Shown in pieces: positions 4,479 through 28,848 of a stretch of DNA of 28,963 bases (its first letter is position 1; each line of letters begins with the position of its first letter). This stretch comes from a virus, in IMG/VR virus record IMGVR_UViG_3300034374_003079, positions 1 through 28,963 of that record; one strand, 5' to 3'. The translations under genes and the position numbers were made by a program. Below the pieces are notes generated by a model. The model did not search any database and was not told where the DNA came from. It worked only from the letters and a program-made list of their open reading frames with translations.

Positions 4479-7019
4479 TCAAACCCTCCTATAAAGACGT
4501 GGTGAATAGTTACCTTCCCACATCATTGATACCAACGATACAGGATATGGAAAATTACTTGTCACTTTCAATTCAAAATTAGTATTACGTTGGTGGACAG
4601 GAATGGTAAAGATACGTTCAGGTTTGACTGGATTACTATCTGATGAATAATAGTCAGCATCTGCTACGTGTTGTATATCACGCCATTCACTAGATCCTGT
4701 TGGTTTTACTTGGAAGCGAATAGCACCTGTTCTACCTACAGAGAACTTAACTCTTGAAATCGTTAACGTAGCAGTAAAATCAGTCGTGGTTTGATCACGT
4801 CTAAAGTAGAACTTAGGTAGTGTTACATCAAAGTTATAGTTATAACCTACAACGATACCGTCAGCATAAGGTAGGAAGTTACCCTTTACTTCAAAGTATC
4901 TATAACCTGTACCAACTTCTGTACGTTCAGTAGCAGCAGACCAATAACCAGCATCAGCATCTAGAAGAGCTTCTGCATCATTTAGATCAGCTTGTGGTTT
5001 AGTGAGAAGCATTGCTGCCTCTCGTTGTTGAAATGGTGTATATGGAACGTAGACCTTGGTGACATCATTTGCCGCATCATACACCACCGCATCTACACCA
5101 GCTGCTGGTGAGACAGGACGTGTAAACATATCTAAACAAGGGTTTCCAATCACATCAGATGTATTAGAGGTGACCTCTCCTGAGGGGATCTCATCAAGGG
5201 TGATAGAACCAATAGTGTATTCATCTTCATGCTGTGCTACGACAACAATAGAGTCATTGATAATCTTAGCTGTTTGGATAGTACCAGGTAGTTCCCATTT
5301 AGTCCATGCTTGGAAGATATCTTTCTCACCATTGTTATAATACCTAAACAGGTAAAGATAAGAGCTACCACGATCAACCAACATGATCACAGAGTTCTGT
5401 GGGCTAACTGCTAAGTCATTAACAGTAGATGGAATCCACTCCAGAACTGCTTTACTGATATCTACAACAATAGGAGGTTGCTCAACATCACGTAGTTGTA
5501 GGGTAAATAGTTTACTGTAACCAGACACCTGGCTAACAAAAGCAGCAGTTGTACCTACATCAGCTGGTGGGATAGTAGCATCCATTTCATAGTTAGAGAT
5601 AGCCCTAACAATAGCTGAAGATGGAGTCAGTACACTACCATCTGTTGTAAAAACTTGGAACTGTTGACGGTCACTAAAGACAAGCAAACCTTGAGGAGAA
5701 GGTAGAACATCATACAAAGTAGCAGGTCTAATACTAGCAACATTCAAATCAATAGGATCTGAATCTACTTGTGTAAGAGCTGATTTAACAAAGAAGTTAA
5801 ACGGGTCATTAGCCCGACTCATGATGATGTTATCTTCTGAAAGGATGCCAAACCTATTGCTATAAAAGAATGTAGAGTTAATAGTATAACCAACAAAAGC
5901 AGGAACTATACTGGTTACTTCATCACCAGTAAGACGTTCTGTCCAATTAATTGGTTTGAATTCAAACGATGTAATACCTGTACGAAGGAGCTGATAAGGC
6001 ATTGTCGTAGAGTCTAGACCAGGTGAAGCATCACGTGCCCTACCTTCTTCCCACACACCACGACCCCTATCATTATCGTATGCTTCAAACTTAAGGTGGA
6101 AGTCATCTTCTGCTACAGTACTATTCAGTACCTTAACCCGATGACCTTGAAAGGATTCAGTAGGAAGACGTGTTACATCTTCAACCGAATCTTGGAAGGC
6201 ATAGAGGGAGTCATTAGATACACCACCTTTAGCTGTGATAGTAAATGGGATTGGAGTACCAGTAGGTGTAGAGTTATCTAAGATAACAGCATTAGCACCT
6301 GTGGTACGTTTAATTACGATACTATTAGTATAACTTTCAAGGTACCATATACCATCAAAGTCAGGGTTACTAGCAGATTGTTGTGCTAAAAGTCCAGCCC
6401 TAAGGGCGTCAATTAGGTTATGATTAGTGTTGATACTCCCTGAATCAAATATCAACATGTCATCAAAGGTCGTCGTACTTTGTGGTGTTACAGAGAACTC
6501 AATACCTTGAATAGTGATGGAATAATTAAAGTCAGCTGTCAACACACTTAAGACGACAGTGGCTACTGTATTCTCAGTGTAGGTACCAGCAGGCTGCATA
6601 GCAGTTACTACTGACCTATTGGTAACAACAGTTGTATCCTGCACACTACGGAAATGATAATCAGCTTGGCTTGTGCCAGTAAGATAACTGGTACCATTAT
6701 TGATAACAGTACACCACTCACCACTAGCTGCTACCCATACATAAATGTTATCATCTTTGATAGCACCAATGTATGAACCAGATATATCACGTTCAATAAA
6801 AAACCAAGCTGCATTTTCAAGTTCAGTTTTACTGAAAAAAGATCCATCAGGTTTCTTTAATACATTAGTAAACCTAAGACCACTCCTTTTTAAAAGACCA
6901 AAGGTAGGGTCAGGATACCCATTAATGCACTCAGTAAGCTGACCGTTTAATTTTTTGTCATCATTTTGTTGAGAGACACCACCAAGAAAGTTCGGTGTTA
7001 GTTGGGTTACAGCAGGCAT
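4479..7019 (-). CDS. Tail tubular protein B (gp12-like nozzle)
   Basis: This 846-residue protein matches T7 gp12, the nozzle of the short tail. The start, VTQLTPNFLGGVSQQNDDKKL, followed by C-I-N-G-Y-P-D-P and LLKRSGL, is characteristic of podovirus tail tubular B proteins; the rest is beta-rich. The length is close to gp12 (about 794). Its ATG overlaps the TGA of tail tubular A by one base (TGATG), which implies coupled translation and fixed stoichiometry. The next gene, an internal core protein, follows almost without a gap. Confidence 0.92.
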   Translation of the reverse strand: MPAVTQLTPNFLGGVSQQNDDKKLNGQLTECINGYPDPTFGLLKRSGLRFTNVLKKPDGSFFSKTELENAAWFFIERDISGSYIGAIKDDNIYVWVAASGEWCTVINNGTSYLTGTSQADYHFRSVQDTTVVTNRSVVTAMQPAGTYTENTVATVVLSVLTADFNYSITIQGIEFSVTPQSTTTFDDMLIFDSGSINTNHNLIDALRAGLLAQQSASNPDFDGIWYLESYTNSIVIKRTTGANAVILDNSTPTGTPIPFTITAKGGVSNDSLYAFQDSVEDVTRLPTESFQGHRVKVLNSTVAEDDFHLKFEAYDNDRGRGVWEEGRARDASPGLDSTTMPYQLLRTGITSFEFKPINWTERLTGDEVTSIVPAFVGYTINSTFFYSNRFGILSEDNIIMSRANDPFNFFVKSALTQVDSDPIDLNVASIRPATLYDVLPSPQGLLVFSDRQQFQVFTTDGSVLTPSSAIVRAISNYEMDATIPPADVGTTAAFVSQVSGYSKLFTLQLRDVEQPPIVVDISKAVLEWIPSTVNDLAVSPQNSVIMLVDRGSSYLYLFRYYNNGEKDIFQAWTKWELPGTIQTAKIINDSIVVVAQHEDEYTIGSITLDEIPSGEVTSNTSDVIGNPCLDMFTRPVSPAAGVDAVVYDAANDVTKVYVPYTPFQQREAAMLLTKPQADLNDAEALLDADAGYWSAATERTEVGTGYRYFEVKGNFLPYADGIVVGYNYNFDVTLPKFYFRRDQTTTDFTATLTISRVKFSVGRTGAIRFQVKPTGSSEWRDIQHVADADYYSSDSNPVKPERIFTIPVHQRNTNFELKVTSNFPYPVSLVSMMWEGNYSPRLYRRV

Positions 7020-7903
7020 CAGCGATACAATGTATGATAAGGTTGATAACTTTGATAATAGTTTTGACCTTGGGGACTACCAAAGTAAGTATAATCTCCT
7101 TGGTTACACTCATATTCAAGCGCCATTGATCGGGCAAACGCTTCCTTCTGTTGAAGCATTTGGTACTGACTACCGTCACCAATAATACGACTAGATACAA
7201 TGGAAGCAGCACGTGCTACGATGAATGCTTGTACAGGAGCTGGAATATTCTCCCAATCAAAGTACCAAGTAATATCTACATAGATGGTTTCATCATCCCA
7301 AGTATATGAATGTGCTGTACGATCATAAAGTTTACCCCCACGATTGACAGCATCACGATTCATATTAACTGGGTAGTTTTGATTTAAATCCATCTGAAGT
7401 GCATTGTTAGGGATTAACACTTCATTGTTAGAATCAGGTGTGATTGGGTAATCATATTCTTTATTAAATGTCCAGCCTTCTGACTGTACCTCACGTGACA
7501 CTTCTCGGAGGGTGTTGAGTACAATCGCAACGTCCGGGTTGGTTGGAGTTTCAACTCTACTTGTAACATTAGATTGAGTCAAGGTACGTTCTGAAACAGT
7601 CTGTGAAATGTTCACAGTGTATTCATACGTTACAGGATCTGTAGCAGGTACAGCTTCTACACCAGCTGTAGCAATAGACGTACCACTTGTTACACCAGTA
7701 CCACCGATATAGGTACCAACTGGAATGTTAGCAGTAGTTGTCGTAAGTGTTGTACCAGAAATAGAACCAGTGAACCGACTTACTTCATTAATTACAAGAG
7801 TCTCTTCAGTTGTCAACGTTGTAACAGGAGCCTGACCAACTGACGCCAGGATCTGATTAACAGCTTGTAGCTCAGTGTTGGAGCCAGTGGTAGGAAATGG
7901 CAT
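7019..7903 (-). CDS. Tail tubular protein A (gp11-like) with inserted Thr/Gly-rich domain
   Basis: This is the adaptor ring below the portal. Residues 1-30 (ELQAVNQILASVGQAPVTTL) and 120-294 (TNPDVAIVLNTLREVSREVQ, then a Tyr-rich C-terminus) are typical of T7 gp11-like proteins. Between them, residues about 31-119 are extra: a Thr/Gly/Val-rich beta module with GSISGTTLTTTT, VGTYIGGTGVTSGT and YTVNISQTVSERTLT. This explains the length of 294 against 196 for T7 gp11. The ATG at 7903 follows a 6-bp hairpin directly and has no SD. It is the first gene after the capsid terminator. Confidence 0.9.
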   Translation of the reverse strand: MPFPTTGSNTELQAVNQILASVGQAPVTTLTTEETLVINEVSRFTGSISGTTLTTTTANIPVGTYIGGTGVTSGTSIATAGVEAVPATDPVTYEYTVNISQTVSERTLTQSNVTSRVETPTNPDVAIVLNTLREVSREVQSEGWTFNKEYDYPITPDSNNEVLIPNNALQMDLNQNYPVNMNRDAVNRGGKLYDRTAHSYTWDDETIYVDITWYFDWENIPAPVQAFIVARAASIVSSRIIGDGSQYQMLQQKEAFARSMALEYECNQGDYTYFGSPQGQNYYQSYQPYHTLYR

Positions 7904-18265: not shown

Positions 18266-19534
18266 TTAGTGTACATCTGCCCAGGTCTGACCTACCTTAG
18301 CTTCCGCTTCGATAGGGATTCTCAGGTTATAAGTTTCCCCAGCCATCAGGGCAGATAATGTTAGTGCTGAAGAAAGTGTATCAGAATATTCAGGTGGACA
18401 TTCAAACTGCACCTCATCATGCACAAATGCTAGTTGGTGTGCATTAATTTCACACGTTTTGATTGTATCGTGAATGTGAATCATCCACTGTTTAGCTACA
18501 ATACCTGCGCTCCCTTGGAGTAGGTAGTTAAGGGCTTTGTGGCTACCATCAACAGTGCAGCGGCGACCGTCACACAGGTTAATGTAACCAGATTCCGCTT
18601 TGGACTTAACCGCAGTAACCAGTTTCTCAAGTCCTGGAATTGCATCCATGTAAGCTTGACGTATCTCAGCCCCTTTCTTTTTAGCGGCTTGCGGCGATAG
18701 TTGTGGGTCATAAGATAATCCGATCTTGTGGTCACCGGCTCCGTACAGAAAGGCATAAGTTACAGTCTTTACTAGACGACGAGAGATTCCAATCTTGTCT
18801 GCGTTCTCTTGGTGAATATCACCGTTGAGAAGAACGTCACCGTACCTGCCTCCATCATATCGGGCAAGGTAGTGTGCGAGCATCCGTAGTTCAATCCCTG
18901 CGAGATCAGCACCAACCATGACATGGCCAGGGCTAGCGCGGAATAGCTTTCTAAATTCAAGATCACTAGGTACCTGTGCTAAGTTTGGATTGCGGTGAGC
19001 ACATCGAAATGTGTTCGTAGCAACAGAGCAGTGGTGATGGATACGATTGTTTCGTACCAGCTTTAGCCAAGCGTTGTTACCTTCAGACAACATACCAAGC
19101 TTTTTGGTTGTCTCAAAGCAACATAAGAACTGCAGAGCTTCCTCTGTGCCTATGTCCTTGAGTGTTGTCTCATCAATCACCGCCTTGCCAGTGTTGGTTG
19201 TTTTATCAGGTTTCCAACCATGATGTGTTTTCATGATCCAGGCAATGTGATCACGACTGGTAGGGCTGAACTCCTTCAGTCTAGTGAAAGTAGCTCCGGC
19301 GATGTATCCTTGGGTTCGATTAGGTCGTTTAGGAGTAAACTCCGGTCCAGCAACGTAAGGGTACCGCTTCCGTAGTAGCTGATTAAGATTATCAAGCTCG
19401 GTATAGAGAGTTTGTGCAAGTTCCCATGCAGCTGGCTCATCAAAAAACCATCCATGTAATTCTTGCTCGGTGAGGATTTCTGCGACACGATGCTCTAGTG
19501 CGATCCATTTAGGAATGGTTGAAAGTGTTTCCAA
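18266..19534 (-). CDS. DNA polymerase, polymerase domain (second frame of split gp5)
   Basis: This frame carries the family A polymerase domain of a T7 gp5-like enzyme. Motif A is GADLAGIELRMLAHY (Asp210), motif B is RRLVKTVTYAFLYGAG (Lys256 and Tyr260, equivalent to T7 Lys522 and Tyr526), and motif C is FVHDEVQFEC (His372-Asp373-Glu374). It lies in the -1 frame relative to the exonuclease half and overlaps it by 40 nt. The stop TAA at its upstream edge leaves TTG at 19534 as the only plausible start, and that has no SD. The first ATG is about 100 codons in, beyond conserved sequence. Either a frameshift, reinitiation, or a sequence error joins the halves. Confidence 0.93.
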   Translation of the reverse strand: METLSTIPKWIALEHRVAEILTEQELHGWFFDEPAAWELAQTLYTELDNLNQLLRKRYPYVAGPEFTPKRPNRTQGYIAGATFTRLKEFSPTSRDHIAWIMKTHHGWKPDKTTNTGKAVIDETTLKDIGTEEALQFLCCFETTKKLGMLSEGNNAWLKLVRNNRIHHHCSVATNTFRCAHRNPNLAQVPSDLEFRKLFRASPGHVMVGADLAGIELRMLAHYLARYDGGRYGDVLLNGDIHQENADKIGISRRLVKTVTYAFLYGAGDHKIGLSYDPQLSPQAAKKKGAEIRQAYMDAIPGLEKLVTAVKSKAESGYINLCDGRRCTVDGSHKALNYLLQGSAGIVAKQWMIHIHDTIKTCEINAHQLAFVHDEVQFECPPEYSDTLSSALTLSALMAGETYNLRIPIEAEAKVGQTWADVH

Positions 19535-20013
19535 AGTTTAGTCGTAACAACAACGTCTTGTACCATATAATCTTGCATCTCTTGACTCCATTCTTTCCAA
19601 TCTGCTGTCTTTCCAAACTCTCCTTTATATTCACCTAATCGATACCCATAGGCTTCAAGAGAATGGCGACCATAAAGTTGGAGAGGCATGTTCTTCCAAT
19701 TTCTTTTCTGATCGGTCTTCAGAATATCAGCATGACATATGCGGCTGAGAACAAGAGTATCAAGAACGAGACCACTCCTGTCAAACCAGGGAAAAAGTTT
19801 ACGAATGACAGGTATATCATAATTGATAATGTTATGCCCGACAATACAGTCAGCGTCTTCAAGCCTTTGTATCCCACGGACAATCGGTTCAGTATTCCCC
19901 TCATCATTGTAGACAAGGGTTTTGTCAGTCTCCGTATCATAGATGCCAAGACAGTGAATGTGGGTAACATCATGAACGAGTCCGTTCGATTCCAGATCAA
20001 AAATTAGCGTCAT
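19495..20013 (-). CDS. DNA polymerase, 3'-5' exonuclease domain (first frame of split gp5)
   Basis: The 172-residue product is the proofreading domain: IFDLESNGL (Asp6, Glu8, Exo I), GHNIINYDIPVI (Asp66, Exo II), and YMVQDVVVTTKLW (Tyr149-x-x-x-Asp153, Exo III). A normal T7-like gene would continue into the linker and polymerase domain, but here the frame ends at TAG (19495-19497) twelve codons after VTTKLW, while the polymerase continues in the -1 frame. The ATG at 20013 lacks a good SD. A 56-nt spacer precedes it and includes TAATACGAC, which resembles the first part of a T7 promoter by sequence only. Confidence 0.92.
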   Translation of the reverse strand: MTLIFDLESNGLVHDVTHIHCLGIYDTETDKTLVYNDEGNTEPIVRGIQRLEDADCIVGHNIINYDIPVIRKLFPWFDRSGLVLDTLVLSRICHADILKTDQKRNWKNMPLQLYGRHSLEAYGYRLGEYKGEFGKTADWKEWSQEMQDYMVQDVVVTTKLWKHFQPFLNGSH

Positions 20014-20069
20014 TCCAGTGTCGTATTACACCAGCAACAATAAATAGGTTTGTGATAAAGATCATCAAC

Positions 20070-20333
20070 TCAAGAAGGTTGAGCCTTCGGAGCAGCACCT
20101 TGCCAGACATAAGTTTTATCAACGAATTGTGCTCGTTTGATTGCCTCGGTGGTGGGAGGTTTTGGGCTATAAGCCGTTAGCCAAGTGCCATTTTTTTGCT
20201 CATAAAAGACAACCGTCATGCGATCTTCACGCGGGATGTCAGGAAGATCAGAGTTAATGCAGGGATCGTTTTCCATACTGAGGTACTTAAAATAACCGTC
20301 CTCAGAAATCTGTCGTTGGATCGAAGCTTTCAT
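20070..20333 (-). CDS. Hypothetical protein between primase and polymerase (87 residues)
   Basis: I do not recognise this protein. It is soluble and mixed alpha/beta, with MTVVFYEQKNGTWLTAYSPK in the middle and a Pro/Ala/Gln-rich end. Its ATG at 20333 overlaps the last 32 nt of the primase-helicase gene. The stretch after it (20014-20069) has no gene. The position suggests a role in replication, but this is context only. Confidence 0.75.
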   Translation of the reverse strand: MKASIQRQISEDGYFKYLSMENDPCINSDLPDIPREDRMTVVFYEQKNGTWLTAYSPKPPTTEAIKRAQFVDKTYVWQGAAPKAQPS

Positions 20334-21897
20334 CAGATTTAGTCTCTTTGAATTTACAGGTATTTAGATCATAGCTCAGCCGACACGCGACGCCAACCTC
20401 GCCTGAATAGCGATTCTTGAGGACTCGCACAGTCGTATCACCTCCTCCAGATGTGCTCTGCTGGTTTCGTTCAAGTGCAATAACTCCGTCAGACAACTGT
20501 GCAATTGCTGCACTTCCTCGCAGCTGTCCCAGAGTGACGCGGGCACCCTCTTCATGGTTTTGATCACTAGATGTTCTCCGTAGATGAGAGACAAGGAACA
20601 TGGCGACACCAGTACGCTCTACAAGAGAACGCAACTTAGTCATGGTGGTATCAATCATTCGACGCTCATCACCATCAAGACCACTCAACAGAATAGAGAG
20701 GTGATCAAGGAAGATTACCCTTGTATCAAGACCCGTTGCCAGGTACTCAATTCGGTTGTAGATGAGATCAGGATCAAAAGAACCAAAGCCGTCGAAAAGA
20801 AAAAGATTCCAGTTAGCAAGAGTGTCTTGATATGCTTGGGTGAGAGTAGCTCGGTCATGTTCTCCAATGTGTAGTGATTTACCAACTGCTGCGGACATCA
20901 GTCCGAGAGCTGTACGACGGTTGGATTCCTCAAGTGCCAAGTAACCGACCCGTTCGCCTTTACGTAACAAATGAGTTGCGAGTTCACGACAGAAGCTGGA
21001 CTTTCCGATCCCACTTCCTGCAGTAATCGTGACAAGCTCTCCAAACCTGATCCCGTGTAGTTTGTCTTGGATTCCTTGAAAAGGATACTCATGGTCTGCT
21101 GGTGGTGTTGGTGTGGTGACTAACTCTAAAAGTAATTTACCATCTACAATTCCGTCTGGCCGGTACGGTTTAGCGTCCCAAATAGCCCGACGTATTGACT
21201 CACTGTCATTCGCCTGAAGCGCGTCGCTCGCGTCCTTGTACGCTTCCAGACGGGCGATCTTGCACTTGCCAGGTGGTAGTACCCCTGCTGCTTCCTCCGC
21301 TGCCTTACGGCCCGCCTCGTCATTGTCGAAGAACAGGATAATCTCCTCATAACCCTGGAGCCAGGGGATAGCCCGTTGAATCGACTTCTTTGCCGCAGCG
21401 GCACCGCTAGGTAGAGATACCATCGGCCACCCCGGCATAGCCTCACTACATGAAGCTGCATCAAGTTCCCCTTCAGTGATGACAACTCGTTTTCCAGTGG
21501 AGGGAAACAAATGCTGTCCAAAGAGGCAGGTAGGTGATTGTCCCTCATAATAGAAGTCTTTGGCTTTGGTCTTAGTCTTACATCCAATCAGTATACCATC
21601 TTCATCGTAGTAGTGAAACCGTAAGACATCACCATCACGATAGATCTTATACTGTTGGCATACCTTCTCAGAGATATTTCGCTTACCTAATCGTACAGCA
21701 GAACCTCTGATTGCAATAGACATTTTGTTGGTGTGAATGTGAAATGATTCCTCCGTGTGTCCGTAATTGTTACAAGAGAAGCAGTAGGTATGCCCATCAG
21801 TGTAGAGACTATTTGCATCACTACTGCCACACACATCACACGGTAAGTGCCTGACGAACTCGCTTTCGCATTTCTGCATATGCTCGTGCTTGTGCAT
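20302..21897 (-). CDS. Primase-helicase (gp4-like)
   Basis: This T7 gp4 equivalent primes lagging strands and unwinds DNA. Zinc-binding Cys pairs lie at residues 20/23 and 39/42 (CDVCG and CFSC). The TOPRIM core is VVITEGELDAAS and LFFDNDEAGRKA, and the RecA-like helicase has Walker A AGSGIGKSSF, LEESNRRTALGL, RVIFLDHLSIL and SHLRRTSSD. It ends in an acidic tail with a final Phe (DPTTDF, like T7 NDTDF) that docks the polymerase. The frame opens at TTG 21921; ATG at 21897 is used here and ATG at 21879 is equally possible. An internal ATG at 21723, after the zinc domain, sits where T7 starts its short helicase form, gp4B. Confidence 0.95.
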   Translation of the reverse strand: MHKHEHMQKCESEFVRHLPCDVCGSSDANSLYTDGHTYCFSCNNYGHTEESFHIHTNKMSIAIRGSAVRLGKRNISEKVCQQYKIYRDGDVLRFHYYDEDGILIGCKTKTKAKDFYYEGQSPTCLFGQHLFPSTGKRVVITEGELDAASCSEAMPGWPMVSLPSGAAAAKKSIQRAIPWLQGYEEIILFFDNDEAGRKAAEEAAGVLPPGKCKIARLEAYKDASDALQANDSESIRRAIWDAKPYRPDGIVDGKLLLELVTTPTPPADHEYPFQGIQDKLHGIRFGELVTITAGSGIGKSSFCRELATHLLRKGERVGYLALEESNRRTALGLMSAAVGKSLHIGEHDRATLTQAYQDTLANWNLFLFDGFGSFDPDLIYNRIEYLATGLDTRVIFLDHLSILLSGLDGDERRMIDTTMTKLRSLVERTGVAMFLVSHLRRTSSDQNHEEGARVTLGQLRGSAAIAQLSDGVIALERNQQSTSGGGDTTVRVLKNRYSGEVGVACRLSYDLNTCKFKETKSDESFDPTTDF

Positions 21898-22045
21898 CGT
21901 GATAATCAAACCAGGAATCAAGTGCTAGGTAGAAACCTTCAATCAGGTTCTGCGCTGTGTTAGGGTTTTCAGCATCAACATCAGCGAGGTAATCACTGAA
22001 GCCTTCTGCATAGAACTCAGGTGTGCCGTAAGTCAGGTTAGCCAT
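21836..22045 (-). CDS. Small protein between endonuclease I and primase (69 residues)
   Basis: The frame reads MANLTYGTPEFYAEGFSDYL, then ADVDAENPNTAQNLIEGFYL and a helical C-terminus. It is acidic to neutral and helical, of unknown function; similar small genes occupy this slot in related phages, from memory. The longer frame (to 22099) has an arbitrary N-terminus inside the endonuclease gene, so ATG 22045 is chosen, giving a 13-nt overlap. Its own end overlaps the primase start by at least 44 nt. Confidence 0.75.
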   Translation of the reverse strand: MANLTYGTPEFYAEGFSDYLADVDAENPNTAQNLIEGFYLALDSWFDYHDAQARAYAEMRKRVRQALTV

Positions 22046-22389
22046 TCGAGTGGGATTGAGTGAAAGGAACAGTATTGGAAGCCGTGCTTTTCGCACCACT
22101 TTGCATAGGTGGTCTTAGATCCTTTGTAGATCTTATTATAAGGTGCTTGAAAGACGAATCGAATATCTAAGTCGGGATTCGCTTTCTTCACTGCGATCAT
22201 CTTCCTTCGGTCTTCCTCCGTCAGGCGTCCCTTTGTTTCTAAGAAGACACCATTCGGTAAAAGAAAGTCGGGTGTGTAGTTGCATTGAAGAACGTATGGA
22301 ACTTTGGTTGACTCGTACTCAAACTCTACCTTCAAGCTTGAGAGAAGATCAGCAACCTTCTCTTCAAGACCTGAACGGTATTTAGGCAT
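22033..22389 (-). CDS. Endonuclease I (gp3-like Holliday junction resolvase)
   Basis: The 118-residue enzyme matches T7 endonuclease I, which resolves branched replication intermediates and breaks host DNA. The PD-(D/E)xK site is visible: Glu9 or Glu10 (GLEEKVADLL), Asp41 (YTPDFLLPNG), Glu51 and Lys53 (FLETKG). The length is close to T7 gp3 (149). The ATG overlaps the stop of the ssDNA-binding protein gene by one base (TAATG). Confidence 0.94.
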   Translation of the reverse strand: MPKYRSGLEEKVADLLSSLKVEFEYESTKVPYVLQCNYTPDFLLPNGVFLETKGRLTEEDRRKMIAVKKANPDLDIRFVFQAPYNKIYKGSKTTYAKWCEKHGFQYCSFHSIPLEWLT

Positions 22390-22955
22390 TAGAAATCATC
22401 TTCCTCAATCTCAGGTGTGGAGGTTACATTCGGTTCCGAAGTTTTGTAACCTTTAGTTTGACCAAAGAGAGCTGCCACTTCAGTTTCACCAAGATCGCCT
22501 GTATCAACACCAGCAGCAGATCCAACCGTAACGACTTGGACACCGACAAGCTTAAGACTCGTTCCATAGGTGACACCATCACGGAGGATATATGGCTTCT
22601 GACGGAACGCAAGTTTGACAGTAGAGCCACTGTAGATCGGGGTGTTGGGGTCAGCAATAGGAGTTCCTTCTGTATCAACGACAGGTGGCTTCGTTTCCTC
22701 ATTCCAACTGAACTTGACCTTGTACTTCCCATCAGACACCTCCTCCCAAGGTTCAGGCTTCAGAGTGGAACGCTTCGGGTTCTTTAGTTTAGACTCAGCC
22801 CATTTGAGAGTATCAGCTCGATCTTCTTCAAGCTTCTCAACAAGGGATTGATCAACAATAGCACCAAGCGAGTAACCGAACTTACTTGGTTTGAGGATAG
22901 CCTGGTAACCTTCAAGGATCACAGGCTCTTGGGTAACGTGGATGGTTTGGGGCAT
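22389..22955 (-). CDS. Single-stranded DNA-binding protein (gp2.5-like)
   Basis: The 188-residue protein lies at the T7 gene 2.5 position, between RNA polymerase and endonuclease I, and ends in EIEEDDF, the acidic tail with a terminal aromatic typical of phage and bacterial SSB proteins that contact polymerase and helicase. The middle is beta-rich with aromatic residues (GKYKVKFSWN, VKLAFRQKPYI), consistent with an OB fold. The longer frame to TTG 23036 lies within the polymerase gene and is not used; ATG 22955 is one base after the RNA polymerase stop. Confidence 0.85.
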   Translation of the reverse strand: MPQTIHVTQEPVILEGYQAILKPSKFGYSLGAIVDQSLVEKLEEDRADTLKWAESKLKNPKRSTLKPEPWEEVSDGKYKVKFSWNEETKPPVVDTEGTPIADPNTPIYSGSTVKLAFRQKPYILRDGVTYGTSLKLVGVQVVTVGSAAGVDTGDLGETEVAALFGQTKGYKTSEPNVTSTPEIEEDDF

Positions 22956-22956
22956 T

Positions 22957-25299
22957 TCAGCAAAAGAAATAGGTGGATTCGATAACGGATTCTGGTTCCA
23001 GATCTCCGATGATCGGTGGGTCAGTCTCCGCTCCAATCTGTGAAGCGAAGTCTAGTAGGTAATCATGCTCCGCGAATAGGTGCATGTAAGTCTGCCTCAC
23101 AATAGTGGAGAGGGTAGACATGTCTGTAGCACGACACAATACTGAATCGTGGATGAGTGCAATAGGGGCGTTGAAACGTAAGACACTCAAATGTAGAAGG
23201 CTAGCATCAAGACTGTGAATAAGGTTAGGAGCTGTTGCGTTCTTGTGGTGTTGCTTATCTACCTCCTTTGAGTCATCAACAGCAACCTGTAATTCACAAC
23301 GACCTAACAACTGTAGCTTAACTGTCACCTTCTCTTTCTTCATCAGCCGTTGAGTGACGACAAAGCCAGATGGTGTAGTCCAGGTTAACTCAGTCTTACC
23401 GCTGTCAATAGCTTTGGAGACTTCAGATTCAATCCATGACATGACAGCCATAGGACCAGGAACGACCTCCTCCATAGCATCTCTAACAGCTTTGACTGTT
23501 TTGGTTAGATCCTCTTTCTCAATCTCAATACCTTTCTCCTTTAGTGCGTCCTTGATGTACCCACGATTTGAGTATGGTTTAGCATTATATGGTATAGTCA
23601 TGACTACACGTTTGACCACCTTTCTATCGAGATGTTCTCTAATAGAAGCTGGACAATACGGCTTGGCAGTCTCTGCTACGATTTTATAAGCATCCTGTGG
23701 TTTATCACTAGGTAAGACATTAACAAGCTTAGCAGTAGAACAATCTCGTGCAAGACCTGCAAGGATTTGTAGACCTGAACATGTAGCATCTGTGGCAACA
23801 AATAGACCGGTGAATTGGCGGTCACAAGCTAAGACACAATGGTAGTACTCCTCACAAGCTGCAAGAAACTGCCAAGGTTCATCAGCTACCTCCCATTCAG
23901 AAAGACACCCAATAGGATCTAATACAATGCGCTTGATGAATGTGGAATTATCTTTAACCCAAGCTAATCGCTCAGACATAGGAGCTTTATCAAGACCCCA
24001 AGTAGTAGCTACCTGAAATGCTAACCACTCCTCAGCTTCAGGAGTCATAAAAGCTTCTTCATAACTTCTCAACAAACTTTTTCCAAAGTCTGTATCTTGA
24101 GGAGTTAGAAAGGCAGGAATTGGATAAGCTCTACCTCTGTAGTCAAAAGACCACGGAATATAGAACTTCTCTCTTCCTTTAAACCTCTTTACTGCTTCCA
24201 TTGTCATGCGAGTTCTACATGACTTCCTAAACTCATTAGCTTGTCTATTCCTTACTTCTGCTGCCTCTCTCCTATAAGCTTTCCTAGCTTCTTTATTCTC
24301 AGCTATGTCTACTGGTTTAGGAGGTAGGGGATGTTCTACTACTGGTAGAAACTTACCTATTTGTATTCCCTTCTCATCTAACTCCTCCGCTACTCTTACG
24401 ATAAACGGATTTAGACAGTAGGCTACCTTCTGAATCTTGTTCAGAAACTCCAGGGGTCTCTCCCCCTGTATACATCCGCCATGTCCACGACGCACTAGCT
24501 TATGCCCGTTCATCACCTCGTTGAGCATGTAGCCACCTGCTTGCTCGTTGCTCCAATCATTGGGAGGTATAAGCATTGGCCATGCAAGAGGGCTAAATAG
24601 TTCAGCCTCTTTCATCAGTGCGTCCTTGATGTCCATGAAGTAGGCAGTAGGGACAACAAACTGTGTCTTACGGTTTCTATCTCGTTCGATGTACTTTTCA
24701 AACCAACCACTAACTTGCATGATGCAATCTAGCAGCCAACCACCTAACTTAACACGGTTATCCCTACCCCATGCTTCCCACTTAGGGATGTTATTATGGC
24801 GGTTCATCAATGTCTTGACGACCGTTAGTTTCTGTTGAGTGCCAATGGATTTGTGCCAGTAGTTCTTCTTTAATGAAGTAAGAAGTCCAGGTGCTACCCT
24901 TTCATAGTGTCTCATCTGACACTCATTTTCTACACCAGTTCCAATAGTATCACACACATTGACAAGCTGATTAGCTTTATCTTTGTATGAAAAAACCTTA
25001 TCAAAGGTAATCTTCAAAGCAATGGTAGCAATTGCTAATGGTTCTAGCTGTACGACATAAGTTTTAATGAGTTGAAATTGATGCCCAGTACCTCGCTTAA
25101 GCCTATCATGTGTAGTATCCTCAATGTACTTAACAAGTTTAGGTAGTAGTACATCAATAGATGCGTTACCATAGACACTAGCAGATGCGTAACTCTTATC
25201 CTCTAAGTCATGTGTGTTCTTGTATAGACGTTGTAACCCTAATGCAATAGCCTCTCGCTCGAACTTGATCTGTTCATCAATCTCGGCTTGTGTCGTCAA
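22957..25299 (-). CDS. Single-subunit phage RNA polymerase
   Basis: The 780-residue enzyme is a T7-type polymerase that would transcribe middle and late genes. Catalytic elements are ATDATCSGLQ (Asp near residue 500, T7 Asp537), RVVMTIPYNAKPYSNRGY (Lys and Tyr near 565, T7 Lys631 and Tyr639) and ALIHDSVLC (Asp near 717, T7 Asp812). The C-terminus is YFFC where T7 has FAFA. It is about 100 residues shorter than T7 RNAP, mostly in the N-terminal domain. The start is TTG at 25299, set by GGAGG 6 nt upstream; the N-terminal EIDEQIKFEREAIALG helix is family-like from the first codons. The start overlaps the end of a 38-residue ORF. Confidence 0.97.
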   Translation of the reverse strand: MTTQAEIDEQIKFEREAIALGLQRLYKNTHDLEDKSYASASVYGNASIDVLLPKLVKYIEDTTHDRLKRGTGHQFQLIKTYVVQLEPLAIATIALKITFDKVFSYKDKANQLVNVCDTIGTGVENECQMRHYERVAPGLLTSLKKNYWHKSIGTQQKLTVVKTLMNRHNNIPKWEAWGRDNRVKLGGWLLDCIMQVSGWFEKYIERDRNRKTQFVVPTAYFMDIKDALMKEAELFSPLAWPMLIPPNDWSNEQAGGYMLNEVMNGHKLVRRGHGGCIQGERPLEFLNKIQKVAYCLNPFIVRVAEELDEKGIQIGKFLPVVEHPLPPKPVDIAENKEARKAYRREAAEVRNRQANEFRKSCRTRMTMEAVKRFKGREKFYIPWSFDYRGRAYPIPAFLTPQDTDFGKSLLRSYEEAFMTPEAEEWLAFQVATTWGLDKAPMSERLAWVKDNSTFIKRIVLDPIGCLSEWEVADEPWQFLAACEEYYHCVLACDRQFTGLFVATDATCSGLQILAGLARDCSTAKLVNVLPSDKPQDAYKIVAETAKPYCPASIREHLDRKVVKRVVMTIPYNAKPYSNRGYIKDALKEKGIEIEKEDLTKTVKAVRDAMEEVVPGPMAVMSWIESEVSKAIDSGKTELTWTTPSGFVVTQRLMKKEKVTVKLQLLGRCELQVAVDDSKEVDKQHHKNATAPNLIHSLDASLLHLSVLRFNAPIALIHDSVLCRATDMSTLSTIVRQTYMHLFAEHDYLLDFASQIGAETDPPIIGDLEPESVIESTYFFC

Positions 25300-25393
25300 T
25301 ACAATCCTCCGTGTCGTGAATGTGAATCAGTTGCGCAAGCTCAGGATAATCTTCACTAAGCTCTTCAAATTGCTCAATCGTGATCAGACTCAT
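25277..25393 (-). CDS. Small acidic ORF ahead of RNA polymerase (38 residues)
   Basis: The frame reads MSLITIEQFEELSEDYPELA, then QLIHIHDTEDCIDDTSRD. Its end overlaps the RNA polymerase start by 23 nt, its start overlaps the preceding 105-residue gene by 20 nt, and the polymerase SD lies within it. A role as a leader for polymerase translation, or as an independent acidic protein, would fit. The codons for IHIHD contain the repeated 10-mer TTCACATTCA. No function is recognised. Confidence 0.55.
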   Translation of the reverse strand: MSLITIEQFEELSEDYPELAQLIHIHDTEDCIDDTSRD

Positions 25394-25691
25394 CTTCTTC
25401 GTAGTGTGGTGAAATGAAATGGATTTGTTCATCGGTGCAAACAGTAAACTCTACACCATCTCTCATCAACTCTGCTACCTTTTGTTCAGCAGCATGACGC
25501 TTTTGATAGACATACTCTTTGATCTTACCTTTATCCGTACTTGCACGAATGATGCAACATACAGAACTAGGTAGTTCCCAACCTGCTACCTTCCAAGACA
25601 TAACTTCCTCAAATGTATGAGGAACAAACATCTCATCAGGTGCATCTTTGTATTCTTGCCAGTTGTTTGCATAATACTTCTTACCACTCAT
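25374..25691 (-). CDS. Early hypothetical protein (105 residues)
   Basis: I do not recognise a domain. The N-terminus is SGKKYYANNWQEYKDAPDEM, the middle has a hydrophobic strand LPSSVCCIIRASTDKGKIKE, and the C-terminus is acidic (HYEEDESDHD). The ATG at 25691 has GAGG 7 nt upstream, a fair SD. It overlaps the preceding 50-residue gene by 11 nt and the following small ORF by 20 nt. The position directly before RNA polymerase suggests an early takeover function. Confidence 0.8.
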   Translation of the reverse strand: MSGKKYYANNWQEYKDAPDEMFVPHTFEEVMSWKVAGWELPSSVCCIIRASTDKGKIKEYVYQKRHAAEQKVAELMRDGVEFTVCTDEQIHFISPHYEEDESDHD

Positions 25692-25833
25692 CAGCTTGCC
25701 TCACATTGATTAATTCATCATCTTGTTCGTGGGACAACTCTAAAGCTATCCATGCAGCAGCTTCAGAATCGGGCGCTAACAAATGTATAGTGCCTGAACT
25801 TAGGGTCACCTCGTATAGACGTGGTTGGGTCAT
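25681..25833 (-). CDS. Small early protein (50 residues)
   Basis: The frame reads M-T-Q-P-R-L-Y-E-V-T-L-S-S-G-T-I-H-L-L-A, then PDSEAAAWIALELSHEQDDE and LINVRQADEW. A beta hairpin followed by a helix is likely, and the pattern (VTLSSGT, APDSEAAAW, DE-LINVR) matches a small family I recognise from cyanophages, with no known function. It overlaps the next gene by 11 nt and starts 8 nt after the preceding gene's stop. Confidence 0.75.
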   Translation of the reverse strand: MTQPRLYEVTLSSGTIHLLAPDSEAAAWIALELSHEQDDELINVRQADEW

Positions 25834-25841
25834 AAATAGCA

Positions 25842-26198
25842 CTAGTCAGGGATTGATTCAAGGGCGCGGCGGATGGTGTCTCTACACGTCACAAAAGCTG
25901 CTGCGTCCGGCCCTTTGCATAGAAGGGTGAGGGCATCAAGCGCCTGCTCCTTCAAGCTCGGCGGCTTGGGGCGGCGGCGTGAGCGGAGTAGTTCACCCCA
26001 ATACGTGCTCGGGTTGTGCTCATTAAGCACTTCACAGCACGCCTCCAGCTCTTGGTCTGCGCCCCATTGGGCGGCTTGGGTGGCAAGGAAAGTCTCAGAG
26101 GGGGATAGCTCACCGCTGACAATGCAGCCAAAATAGTTTCCTAGCCAGTGCTGTATCAACTCAGGCGGCGGAGTAATCAGATGTTCTTGGGTCATCAT
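25842..26198 (-). CDS. GC-rich hypothetical protein of cyanobacterial/cyanophage type (118 residues)
   Basis: The protein reads TQEHLITPPPELIQHWLGNY, then TQAAQWGADQELEACCEVLN and RSRRRPKPPSLKEQALDALT, ending TIRRALESIPD. This set of motifs belongs to a helical family that I recognise from marine cyanobacteria and their phages, with no proven function. Its base composition is clearly richer in G+C than its neighbours (for example GGGGCGGCGGCG-type runs on the plus strand near 25,960-25,980), which suggests transfer from a different genome. Two ATGs in tandem (26198, 26195) overlap the preceding TGA; either could be the start. Confidence 0.85.
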   Translation of the reverse strand: MMTQEHLITPPPELIQHWLGNYFGCIVSGELSPSETFLATQAAQWGADQELEACCEVLNEHNPSTYWGELLRSRRRPKPPSLKEQALDALTLLCKGPDAAAFVTCRDTIRRALESIPD

Positions 26199-26398
26199 TT
26201 AACGTAGGGACGTTTACGGGTTGTACGTGTAGTGGTTGGTGCGTCCTTGGTTTCTTCTACTTCCTCGGTTTGAGTTAGTAGAGCCTCGTACTCATCACGT
26301 AGTTTGTAATACTCATCAGTGTATTCTGTTGTGGTTGAACAATAATGTAGCCAACATTTAACAGCGTTAAAGATTAGCCACTCCTTGGATTTAGTCAT
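26195..26398 (-). CDS. Small early protein with basic tail (67 residues)
   Basis: The N-terminal half, MTKSKEWLIFNAVKCWLHYC, is helical and aromatic. A Tyr/Glu-rich segment follows (EYYKLRDEYEALL), and the tail is a Thr/Arg/Lys stretch (TTTRTTRKRPYVK) after an acidic patch. I do not recognise it. The stop overlaps the start of the GC-rich gene, and the gene begins 6 nt after the preceding stop, so it is part of a tightly packed early unit. Confidence 0.7.
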   Translation of the reverse strand: MTKSKEWLIFNAVKCWLHYCSTTTEYTDEYYKLRDEYEALLTQTEEVEETKDAPTTTRTTRKRPYVK

Positions 26399-26404
26399 AG
26401 ATGT

Positions 26405-26707
26405 TTAGTAAGATTGGGTATCAGTAAGGATAAACCTAAGCTCAAGTCCTGGGGGCTCAAGCTTCCCGTTTTCATAAGATGCTTCTACATAGACAGCCTC
26501 AATGCCGCCACTTGATGTAGTAGCCTTCCTATCCCATGAGTCATTAAGACGTTTCTGTGCAGCAAGGATTAGCTGTACTAATGTAGGTACTTTGTAACCA
26601 TCAGTTGTTGCCCACTTCCAGTCAATGTGAGTCATTACCTTATGGACACGTTCAAAGTTAAACGTATTCAGACAATACTCAATCGCTTGTTGTTTGTAGT
26701 CAGTCAT
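26405..26707 (-). CDS. Early hypothetical protein (100 residues)
   Basis: The product reads MTDYKQQAIEYCLNTFNFER, then VHKVMTHIDWKWATTDGYKV, a helical linker (LVQLILAAQKRLND) and a beta-rich C-terminus with GLELRFIL. The layout of a helix, an xDWxW core and a strand end resembles small early proteins in cyanophages, with no known function. The longer frame to 26764 lies in the preceding gene, so ATG 26707 is used; the overlap with that gene's stop is 8 nt. Confidence 0.75.
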   Translation of the reverse strand: MTDYKQQAIEYCLNTFNFERVHKVMTHIDWKWATTDGYKVPTLVQLILAAQKRLNDSWDRKATTSSGGIEAVYVEASYENGKLEPPGLELRFILTDTQSY

Positions 26708-26876
26708 TGTCAGTGAATGTAAAATAATCGTCAATGTAGAGCCAGATGCGACTCTCGATCTCATCAGCTAACTTATAGCTAGCTGTATCGCTAATTTCTA
26801 CATCCGTATTGAGGAATGCATGATCTATGCCCTCACGAATGCAGCGATCAAGTAAGGCTCGGATGTTAGGTTTCAT
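26700..26876 (-). CDS. Small early protein (58 residues)
   Basis: The frame reads MKPNIRALLDRCIREGIDHA, then FLNTDVEISDTASYKLADEI and ESRIWLYIDDYFTFTDND. The pattern of PNIRALLDRCI at the start and IWLYIDDYF at the end is one I recognise from a small, widespread cyanophage family without known function. It is acidic at the C-terminus. The ATG at 26876 overlaps the preceding gene's stop by 4 nt (ATGA), and its own TGA overlaps the next start. Confidence 0.75.
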   Translation of the reverse strand: MKPNIRALLDRCIREGIDHAFLNTDVEISDTASYKLADEIESRIWLYIDDYFTFTDND

Positions 26877-27106
26877 ACTCCGTGCTCAAATGCAGTGTCA
26901 GTAAAGTCATTCTGAAATGACGTGATCTTCTTTAACTCATCATCAGTTAACGCAAACCTGTCAGGATCAGCAATAGCCGTGTTAATTACCTTGAGCAGTG
27001 GAAAGAACTCATCAGGGAAGACATCAACCTTAACGGATGTGTCGTGGATAGCGTTAGTCACAAAGTAACTCCAATTGAAGGTGATCGTCGCATGAATCAG
27101 ACTCAT
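26873..27106 (-). CDS. Early hypothetical protein (77 residues)
   Basis: I do not recognise it. It opens with a probable strand (LIHATITFNWSYFVTNAI), then VKVDVFPDEFFPLLKVINTA and ALTDDELKKITSFQNDFTDT. It is acidic and soluble. The ATG at 27106 lies 53 nt inside the preceding 45-residue gene in another frame, and the stop overlaps the next gene as ATGA. Confidence 0.7.
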   Translation of the reverse strand: MSLIHATITFNWSYFVTNAIHDTSVKVDVFPDEFFPLLKVINTAIADPDRFALTDDELKKITSFQNDFTDTAFEHGV

Positions 27107-27191
27107 GCAAATCCAGCATAGCCATGTCTACGTGAGACACAAGCTTATCGAAGAGAAAGTTAACAAACTCTCGATTCTCTTGACTAATCAT
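27054..27191 (-). CDS. Small acidic early protein (45 residues)
   Basis: The frame reads MISQENREFVNFLFDKLVSH, then VDMAMLDLHESDSCDDHLQL and ELLCD. It is acidic and helical, with no recognised domain. Support comes from its ATG overlapping the preceding gene's stop (ATGA) and from a gene-like composition. Without it the interval 27107-27187 would be empty. It overlaps the next gene by 53 nt. Confidence 0.6.
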   Translation of the reverse strand: MISQENREFVNFLFDKLVSHVDMAMLDLHESDSCDDHLQLELLCD

Positions 27192-27376
27192 TCGTAACAC
27201 TCCTCGTTGATGTAAGTAAGGTAACGATAAAGATCCAGATGAGCTTCTTTACGCTCATGCCAAGGATCAACATACGTTAACGCGCTAAACGGATCACGCA
27301 TGAACAATCCTGTCCAATAGTTACAACAACCTGTGAGGCTGTTAACTAGATCGTACACTGTGTCTTGGTGATGCAT
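27188..27376 (-). CDS. Small early protein (62 residues)
   Basis: The product is MHHQDTVYDLVNSLTGCCNY, then WTGLFMRDPFSALTYVDPWH and ERKEAHLDLYRYLTYINEEC. It is rich in aromatic residues (eight Tyr or Trp) with a C-terminal helix. I do not recognise it. An AAGGA lies about 10 nt before the ATG, and the repeated 10-mer TTCACATTCA lies 19 nt before it in the intergenic leader. Its stop overlaps the next start as ATGA. Confidence 0.7.
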   Translation of the reverse strand: MHHQDTVYDLVNSLTGCCNYWTGLFMRDPFSALTYVDPWHERKEAHLDLYRYLTYINEECYE

Positions 27377-27395
27377 AGCTGCGTCCTTGATAATA

Positions 27396-27405
27396 TGAAT
27401 GTGAA
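27396..27405 (-). repeat. Copy of the TTCACATTCA leader repeat
   Basis: An exact copy of the 10-mer lies in the intergenic gap 27377-27423, before the 62-residue gene. Other exact copies, all in the same orientation, are at 27752-27761, 25317-25326, 21734-21743 and 18471-18480. Confidence 0.6.
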
Positions 27406-27423
27406 TCCCGTTCGGGTTAGTTA

Positions 27424-27744
27424 CTAGGCGTACTTACCCTCCTCTTCGTCATTCATAACTCGCTGACAATACGTCTCAATAGTATGCCAAACCATCACCT
27501 GAATGAGGTTGGGAATGCTAGTCGTACCTCTGGAGAGTTGCTCCATAAAGTCTTCACCTAGCGTGTCATGACATACATCTTCTACGTCATCTTCAAACTC
27601 ATGGAAGAACTTAGTTGTCTCGTGGTAATATACAAAACCAGAGACACCGATAGAACAACCGTAATTGGCAATATCGTAGATCTCGTCTATGTCATCGAAA
27701 CGTTCTTCGAGAGCTTTGGTAAGTTCTTTGGTGTAGAACAGCAT
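27424..27744 (-). CDS. Early hypothetical protein (106 residues)
   Basis: The product reads MLFYTKELTKALEERFDDID, then EIYDIANYGCSIGVSGFVYY and a helical acidic stretch FFHEFEDDVEDVCHDTLGED. The GCxxGVSGF element and the following acidic helix form a pattern I recognise from a small phage family of unknown function. The C-terminus has VMVWHTIETYCQ. The longer frame to 27804 only adds leader sequence; ATG 27744 is used. The 10-mer TTCACATTCA ends 7 nt before that ATG. Confidence 0.75.
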   Translation of the reverse strand: MLFYTKELTKALEERFDDIDEIYDIANYGCSIGVSGFVYYHETTKFFHEFEDDVEDVCHDTLGEDFMEQLSRGTTSIPNLIQVMVWHTIETYCQRVMNDEEEGKYA

Positions 27745-27751
27745 ACGTGTG

Positions 27752-27761
27752 TGAATGTGAA
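27752..27761 (-). repeat. Copy of the TTCACATTCA leader repeat
   Basis: An exact copy lies in the gap 27745-27810, 7 nt before the ATG of the 106-residue gene and at the place where an SD would be expected; no SD is present. Confidence 0.6.
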
Positions 27762-27810: not shown

Positions 27811-28035
27811 TCAGCCAACAACGGTATAACGATTGCCCTTGCAATAAGCATTGACAAACTTACCTACCGACTCAAACTCACCGTAGAAAAAGTCAAGCAT
27901 AGCCTCACTGTTTACGTTATCGTAGAGGTAAGTCTTAGCGTTGTTGATGAACTGAACAATCACTTGGTTAGTCTCAAGGTTAAGACGGATGTTACGGATG
28001 TTGGAAGAGGTGAAGTTGGAAGGTTGGAAGAACAT
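27811..28035 (-). CDS. KTSC-like small early protein, copy 2 (74 residues)
   Basis: The product is MFFQPSNFTSSNIRNIRLNL, then ETNQVIVQFINNAKTYLYDN and a helix with FESVGKFVNAYCKGNRY. The order (SS-x-I, a hairpin ending in Y-x-Y-x-x-V, then S-x-G-x-F-V-N) resembles the KTSC domain, a small fold of unknown function common in phages. It is probably a diverged paralog of the next gene upstream (28085-28330). The longer frame to 28236 lies in that gene, so ATG 28035 is used. The leader has CTTTTTCACTCACG and no SD. Confidence 0.7.
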   Translation of the reverse strand: MFFQPSNFTSSNIRNIRLNLETNQVIVQFINNAKTYLYDNVNSEAMLDFFYGEFESVGKFVNAYCKGNRYTVVG

Positions 28036-28084
28036 GTTAAACGTGAGTGAAAAAGTGTTAACTAATGAAGGATGAAAGGTTAAC

Positions 28085-28330
28085 TCAGACAGCAATAGCA
28101 TAACGGAAGTCAACACTAGCACGCTTGGTATTGACGCAGTTAGCGTTAACCCAGAAGCCAAGAGACATGTTAGGATTAGCAAGAAGGTTAATGATAGCAC
28201 GACGGCTGACACCGCTATACTTATAGCTGTTGCCACCTTTGAAGGTAACGTTAACAGTACCAGTCAAAGGATTAGCAGTCATGAAATAGACAGCATCAGA
28301 GGAACGAACAGGAACGATTGTGTTGAACAT
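28085..28330 (-). CDS. KTSC-like small early protein, copy 1 (81 residues)
   Basis: The product reads MFNTIVPVRSSDAVYFMTAN, then PLTGTVNVTFKGGNSYKYSG and VSRRAIINLLANPNMSLGFW. This is the KTSC pattern: SS at the start, a strand pair with V-x-F-x-G-G-x-x-Y-x-Y-x-x-V, then a helix and S-x-G-x-x-V-N. The function is unknown. ATG 28330 is chosen over the frame start at 28384 because the added residues are leader-like. The leader has ACACATTCACTCACTTTTTC, a variant of the 10-mer repeat seen in front of other early genes. Confidence 0.75.
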   Translation of the reverse strand: MFNTIVPVRSSDAVYFMTANPLTGTVNVTFKGGNSYKYSGVSRRAIINLLANPNMSLGFWVNANCVNTKRASVDFRYAIAV

Positions 28331-28411
28331 GTTGGAAAAAGTGAGTGAATGTGTGTAGCGTTGAGTGCTACAGAAACCCAACACTAAGTGATGGGAAAGT
28401 GTAACAGTCAG

Positions 28412-28621: not shown

Positions 28622-28650
28622 AGTATGGCACAGGTTGAGGCAAAAGTCAA
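28622..28650 (-). promoter_or_regulatory. Host sigma70-type early promoter
   Basis: On the coding strand a -35 box TTGACT (five of six to TTGACA, plus-strand 28645-28650) is followed by exactly 17 bp and a -10 box CATACT (four of six to TATAAT, 28622-28627). It lies just before the first gene of the early block. A 6-bp inverted repeat AAGTGG/CCACTT touches the -35 box and might be an operator or the end of the upstream gene's message. Host RNA polymerase would be needed here because the phage enzyme is encoded downstream. Confidence 0.7.
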
Positions 28651-28665: not shown

Positions 28666-28848
28666 TTAGTTGACTGGCATGTAGTACACATGTTCCATAG
28701 CGTCACTGATTTCATGATGCTGAATACCATTCACTTTAGCTGGTTTGTTACGCTTACCCTTTGGTACTTTGTTACACCATAACAGTGTCTTGATTGGTTT
28801 ATCACCAAGGATAAATGTTGTGTCTTTCAGCTTAACACGCACTGGCAC
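28666..28848 (-). CDS. Small basic protein at the genome-end side (60 residues)
   Basis: The frame opens at GTG 28848 (a second GTG lies at 28842), immediately after an in-frame TGA, so no ATG start is available upstream. The product has VRVKLKDTTFILGDKPIKTL, then LWCNKVPKGKRNKPAKVNGI and a Tyr-rich end. It is basic and beta-rich, with no recognised domain. No good SD precedes it. It is upstream of the early promoter, so it would need another promoter. Confidence 0.55.
   Translation of the reverse strand: MPVRVKLKDTTFILGDKPIKTLLWCNKVPKGKRNKPAKVNGIQHHEISDAMEHVYYMPVN

Follow-up and report, generated by a model that had tools for sequence, protein, structure and literature searches.

A one-strand word kept at conserved positions in T7-like cyanophages, with strand-specific nicking sites as the favoured reading

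Does a ten-base word that recurs in one orientation ahead of early gene starts in a marine phage genome have a function, and if so, what reads it? The DNA analysed here (the window) is a virus record of 28,963 bases, a fragment of a T7-like Synechococcus phage whose core genes all lie on the - strand and whose RNA polymerase shares 70-75% identity with those of S-RIP1, S-B28, WH11-B, S-CBP1 and their relatives. From the right end, the gene order is early genes, RNA polymerase, SSB, endonuclease, primase/helicase and DNA polymerase (split into two frames), followed by exonuclease, MazG, RNR, portal, hli, psbA, and capsid and tail genes.

We recovered all five exact copies of the 10-mer TTCACATTCA that the initial annotation had reported, each on the - (coding) strand, and detected none on the + strand. 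Dinucleotide shuffles of the window gave a mean of 0.10 copies and never five, which agrees with its estimate that chance would yield far less than one copy; because no 10-mer of any sequence reached five copies in 200 shuffles, the count survives correction for the look-elsewhere effect. The distances to start codons were also correct (7 and 19 nt to an ATG, 17 nt to the RNA polymerase TTG, and 10 nt to the internal ATG of the primase), and the 16-base identity between the copy in the DNA polymerase and the one before the RNA polymerase was exact. The two variants described there are real, with their cores at 28345-28353 (CACATTCAC) and 26713-26723 (TTTACATTCAC) instead, while three core copies (23936-23944, 19954-19962 and 7306-7314) had been missed. 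The useful unit in the window is the 8-9-mer CACATTCAY rather than the 10-mer, and the core conserved in relatives is CACANTCAY, with weak flanks. The initial observation was thus right but too narrow. The copies and the accompanying second word are the following:

28345 to 28353, - strand: CACATTCAC, early leader copy directly before ATG 28330 of a KTSC-like early gene
27752 to 27761, - strand: TTCACATTCA, copy in an early leader, flanked by a terminator-like hairpin and ATG 27744
27396 to 27405, - strand: TTCACATTCA, early leader copy after a CCCGAACGGG stem and followed by the second word AAGGACGCAG and ATG 27376
27379 to 27388, - strand: AAGGACGCAG, second early word (box B), between the CACANTCAY motif and the start codon
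26713 to 26723, - strand: TTTACATTCAC, degenerate copy near the start of the 26704 gene
25317 to 25326, - strand: TTCACATTCA before the RNA polymerase, at the 3' end of a small ORF and 17 nt before the TTG
23936 to 23944, - strand: CACATTCAT within the RNA polymerase gene; this +1352 site is conserved in the two cyanophage clades
21734 to 21743, - strand: TTCACATTCA in the primase/helicase, between the zinc-finger part and an internal Met (T7 gene 4B-like start)
19954 to 19962, - strand: CACATTCAC, core copy in the exonuclease part of the DNA polymerase
18471 to 18480, - strand: TTCACATTCA in the polymerase part of the DNA polymerase; the aligned site of S-CBP4 is TTCACACTCA
7306 to 7314: further core copy, probably due to chance

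The primase copy stands directly before the internal ATG that follows the zinc-finger part, at the place of the T7 gene 4B start, and several relatives without this ATG still keep the word there. In the early region, two neighbouring genes at 27811-28330 (- strand) are paralogues (phrog_7365, KTSC domain). A sigma70-like promoter, TTGACT-N17-CATACT, was matched at 28622-28650 (- strand), the promoter and terminator scans of the window being consensus matches only; its transcript start would fall at or adjoining ATG 28615, which suggests a leaderless early mRNA. Similar recurring promoters are present in S-RIP1. The position of the first promoter relative to the first site followed a loose pattern.

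We examined the relatives of the window (clade B) in 80 loci found by their RNA polymerase, which together cover 754 kb. TTCACATTCA had 42 occurrences, all of them on the coding strand, against a mean of 1.1 for permuted 10-mers in the same loci, and the relaxed form CACA[ACT]TCA was found 387 times on the coding strand vs 40 on the opposite one. Relative to the RNA polymerase start, sites were absent from -10 kb to -4.3 kb and numerous in the early region, with 0.82 copies per genome within the 250 bp preceding the gene, 0.91 at +1352 inside it, about 0.9 at the primase site, and further peaks in the DNA polymerase. A further 199 loci, retrieved with other RNA polymerases, showed the same position pattern, although relatives are not independent and many of the sites are homologous. 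In the late genes the word was at background level: 11 complete or nearly complete genomes held 36 early, 24 middle and 9 late copies, the late part being the longest, vs means of 4.2, 6.4 and 21.2 for permuted words. The enrichment near translation starts for which the initial annotation had suggested a search was present, with 23 of 39 early sites near a start vs 9.1 expected; in S-RIP1 one copy overlaps the start codon itself.

The copies are also constrained at the nucleotide level. The primase site encodes His-X-His, and its first His is CAC in 137 of 137 distinct contexts (45% background). The middle codon ends in T in 133 of the 137 and encodes Ile, Thr or Asn depending on the phage, the word itself staying unchanged, while the last His varies (CAC 52, CAT 85). 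With the first His fixed as CAC, the middle codon ending in T and the last His free, the copies are not explained by coding. We therefore regard the word as a functional element rather than a product of chance or of His-Ile-His coding, since relatives keep it at fixed positions, its synonymous positions are constrained, and it is more frequent near early starts than expected.

The variable base N of CACANTCAY is the same throughout most genomes (T, C or A, with some mixed C/A), and unlinked sites change together. The window and S-RIP1 (full word CACATTCA) have T, S-CBP4, S-B28 and P-SSP7 have C (CACACTCA in S-CBP4 and P-SSP7), and KBS-P-1A and S-SBP1 have A. The RNA polymerase and primase sites agreed in 121 of 129 genomes (TT 59, CC 45, AA 17, discordant 8), the N states of short contigs resting on two or three sites. 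Over all site pairs of the first set the concordance was 0.906, vs 0.705 with sites shuffled between genomes; shared ancestry inflates this measure, and for that reason exchanged genes weigh more. Where phages share 92-96% identity in the primase but only 71-75% in the RNA polymerase, the N in each primase is that of the genome it sits in; the window is one such case. Its word is of the T type, although for most of its core genes the A/C phages are closer relatives than S-RIP1, a T phage. On gene trees, the T vs A/C state changes once for the RNA polymerase, once for gp8, three times for SSB, 5-7 times for the primase and 8-10 times for the endonuclease. The two genes with a single change are the following:

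22957 to 25299, - strand: phage RNA polymerase, among the genes tested the only one present in all these phages with the N=T phages as one clade
25374 to 25691, - strand: gp8 (phrog_9569), conserved early gene before the RNA polymerase, which tracks the N state and is missing from the Syn5 clade

Since the N state changes once on the RNA polymerase tree, we link the recogniser to the RNA polymerase lineage, and since phages of the same host differ (on WH7803, N is A in S-SBP1 and KBS-P-1A and C in WH11-B), we infer that it is encoded by the phage. Sequence comparison shows CACANTCAY to be the recognition word of a trans-acting factor, confined to one strand at fixed positions of the early and replication region, with its variable base tuned to its own genome. 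An operator, as initially proposed, is possible if the term is taken to mean the site that such a factor recognises.

Several candidates for the recogniser were rejected. N does not follow the primase tree, and the sequence of the HNH endonuclease beside the terminase, considered as recogniser or nickase, does not follow the N state. A universal role of gp8 is contradicted by its absence from the Syn5 clade; its model gave no PDB fold match at E<0.001, and it matched no Pfam family above the cut-off. Among several RNA polymerase columns separating T from A/C, the best was residue 17 (Ala/Gln), which is not evidence of contact because the T phages form one clade and Syn5 combines Ala with N=A. 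Separately, the leftmost early gene of the window (28666-28848, - strand, 60 aa) was present in 24 of 25 N=T phages and in none of 61 A/C phages, and the 28615 gene and the 28035 (KTSC) gene in 20 of 25 vs 0 of 61.

More distant cyanophages spell the same element in words of their own. In Syn5, CACCATCA occurs 21:0 on the coding vs the other strand (2.5 expected), and the same word occurs 8:0 in S-CBP2 and 4:0 in P60, in the genome parts covered; S-TIP28 has ATCTCTCA (13:1) and S-CBP42 has CACGAGAG (12:2). P60 and S-TIP28 hold their own word at the conserved RNA polymerase site (+1349 and +1361, respectively), and 9515-10a holds it at the same primase site. The Syn5 RNA polymerase gene contains CACCATCA at +255, +970 and +1898, and Syn5 has copies in late genes too. 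The element predates its spelling. S-TIP37 may use another word: ACATGGAC occurs 8:0 on its coding strand, and its CACANTCA set is weak.

The word is probably kept at conserved places because a phage-encoded protein reads, and perhaps nicks, it. We favour predicted strand-specific nicking sites over an element of early and middle mRNA, with a probability of roughly 45%. The trans-acting factor would be encoded by the phage, the word would be the site of a phage-directed, strand-specific nicking activity, and virion DNA would in consequence carry localized single-strand interruptions, densest in the left part of the genome. We put nicking first because the signature of one strand, left part, lineage-specific word and conserved positions is shared with the proven nick sites of phage tf. 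Site-specific single-strand interruptions are proven in three groups, including phage tf, T5 and phiKMV-like phages. Phage tf carries 14 nicks at TACT/RTGMC on one strand, 11 of them in the left half, while LUZ24 and PaP3 have similar nick positions with one base of the word exchanged, and a co-evolution of nickase and nick sites was proposed (PMC3517423). When we ran our one-strand statistic on tf, the proven nick word ACTGTGAC came first (12:0), and 5 of 12 tf nick words lay within -45 to +20 of a start (13% expected), several exactly before RTG start codons. The nick sites of tf, LUZ24-like, T5 and phiKMV-like phages thus resemble the word studied here in lying on one strand, denser on the left, both near starts and inside genes, and in the nick-site phages, too, positions are similar between relatives, one base is exchanged jointly and words are group-specific. 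This is a resemblance of pattern, not proof, and we do not claim membership of the class. The words and hosts differ, the positions here are kept over much more diverged relatives, and nicks that are proven in those phages are predicted here.

Some observations weigh against nicking. In contrast to tf, which has no nick word on the reverse strand, the reverse strand of clade B is not depleted of the active word (T 20 vs 11.2 expected, C 8 vs 10.2, A 3 vs 8.7), so that the avoidance expected of damaging nicks was not seen in this clade. The N state follows the RNA polymerase and gp8, which a late nickase need not do, and it is not tracked by the HNH gene next to the terminase, the obvious nickase candidate. 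Metagenome contig ends were weakly enriched near sites (15 vs 8.2 expected), a comparison that is confounded, the primase site being also a variable region. In phiKMV, the published nick consensus coincides at 6314, 13986 and 24128 with three annotated putative phage promoters, and from this coincidence nicking sites and polymerase sites may be linked.

A family-wide one-strand code of T7-like cyanophages, in which a factor linked to the RNA polymerase reads an 8-10-base word that is neither promoter nor nick site, is a tentative alternative that we hold to be rather less than an even bet. An equally tentative part of it is that early and middle transcripts or DNA would be read, that the word would turn over between lineages, and that every site of a genome, coding sites too, would be re-tuned after gene exchange.

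We consider it unlikely, though a serious contender, that the word acts at the RNA level, where a phage RNA-binding protein or endoribonuclease would read CACANUCAY in early and middle mRNA and silence, process or activate early and replication genes, as T4 RegA/RegB do. T4 RegA/RegB control early mRNA through motifs that are short and not lineage-variable. Like those motifs, the word lies on the mRNA strand of early and middle genes, near starts; unlike them, it is lineage-variable, and no homologous factor was found. To our knowledge, no RegA/RegB-type system has a lineage-specific 8-10-mer. The RNA reading is favoured by the restriction to the coding strand of early and middle, not late, genes, by the start-proximal early sites and by the tolerated reverse-strand copies. 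The second word GGACGCAG follows 155 of 552 early sites vs 13 random windows, and in each of the four classes sites were marginally more unpaired than words matched for composition. Against it, the internal RNA polymerase and DNA polymerase sites are far from starts, Syn5 has its late-gene copies, the candidate gp8 is absent from the Syn5 clade and without a convincing fold match, and proven nick words show the same start preference. As for the second early word, GGACGCA(G), found at 27379-27388 of the window and in relatives, it occurs 691 times forward and 57 times reverse in relatives, is concentrated from -4 kb to +2 kb of the RNA polymerase, and is SD-like in some genomes and not in others (AAGTCCGCAG). 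The initial suggestion of a translation enhancer replacing the SD accounts neither for the copies that lie within the genes of the RNA polymerase and the DNA polymerase, nor for the variation of the word from phage to phage, nor for the copy before the RNA polymerase, which lies upstream of a perfect GGAGGA SD.

It is improbable that the reader is the RNA polymerase of the phage itself, with the word serving as a secondary promoter or as a sequence-specific pause of the T7 class II kind, even though this polymerase is the only common gene with N=T as one clade (one change) and the one-strand statistic, run on T7, returns its promoters. The word shares with T7 and Syn5 promoters a one-strand, lineage-specific repeat close to genes that follows the polymerase lineage; unlike them it is an 8-9 bp core with weak flanks, and it does not match the Syn5 promoter or its positions. 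The Syn5 genome has only two promoters for its RNA polymerase, ATTGGGCACCCGTAA, from which more than 30 kb are transcribed without significant intermediate products, and a plasmid with the RNA polymerase gene was described as holding one Syn5 promoter (PMC3950665), although this gene holds three copies of CACCATCA. The proven promoter maps to two places, RNA polymerase +809 and the right end of the genome. There, seven of the clade B references examined carry a single repeated pair of 16-21 bp, and the sequence aligned at the first place in all clade B references is GTATACAGGG or TTATACAGGG. The clade B promoters, in Synechococcus and Prochlorococcus phages alike, are likely this pair of GTATACAGGG elements, one at RNA polymerase +~800-815 and the other at the right end. 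In the window, GTATACAGGGG at 24463-24473 (- strand), inside the RNA polymerase gene (GTATACA/GGGGGAGA), is a candidate phage RNA polymerase promoter, and relatives have it at the same place and once more at the right end. Both the existence of a separate promoter pair and the Syn5 data rule against the word as a phage RNA polymerase promoter, one of the initial proposals, and so do the background level before late genes and the S-RIP1 copy over a start codon; moreover, a single T clade provides no independent co-variation.

A host-factor site (Chi-like, a sigma or response-regulator box, or 16S rRNA pairing) is very improbable: the word is short, oriented and repeated, and TTCACATT may resemble one half of the cyanobacterial HLR1 box, but WH7803 phages carry different words and the word tracks the phage RNA polymerase lineage. 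A binding site for pMarR was also rejected, as the early genes of the window include no MarR-like gene and the published passages considered give no such motif (PMC9692554). Finally, a by-product of His-Ile-His codons and low-G leaders with no dedicated function is almost inconceivable: the coding copies of the window do encode (I/F)HIH, but the codon choice at the primase site contradicts such codons as the sole cause, an outcome that the initial annotation had named as refuting its claim, the word stays where the amino acid shifts, and the concerted N state and permuted-word controls agree.

The word is kept at the same places in hundreds of related, abundant marine phages, even inside genes, and a search of the open-access literature found no paper describing it. 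Localized nicks in phage DNA, known since the 1960s, have no agreed function and were suspected to be more widespread than reported. As the word can be read from sequence, predicted nicking at it can be tested in cultured phages. Should it act in mRNA instead, this would help to explain how middle and late expression are separated in phages that transcribe 37 kb from one promoter.
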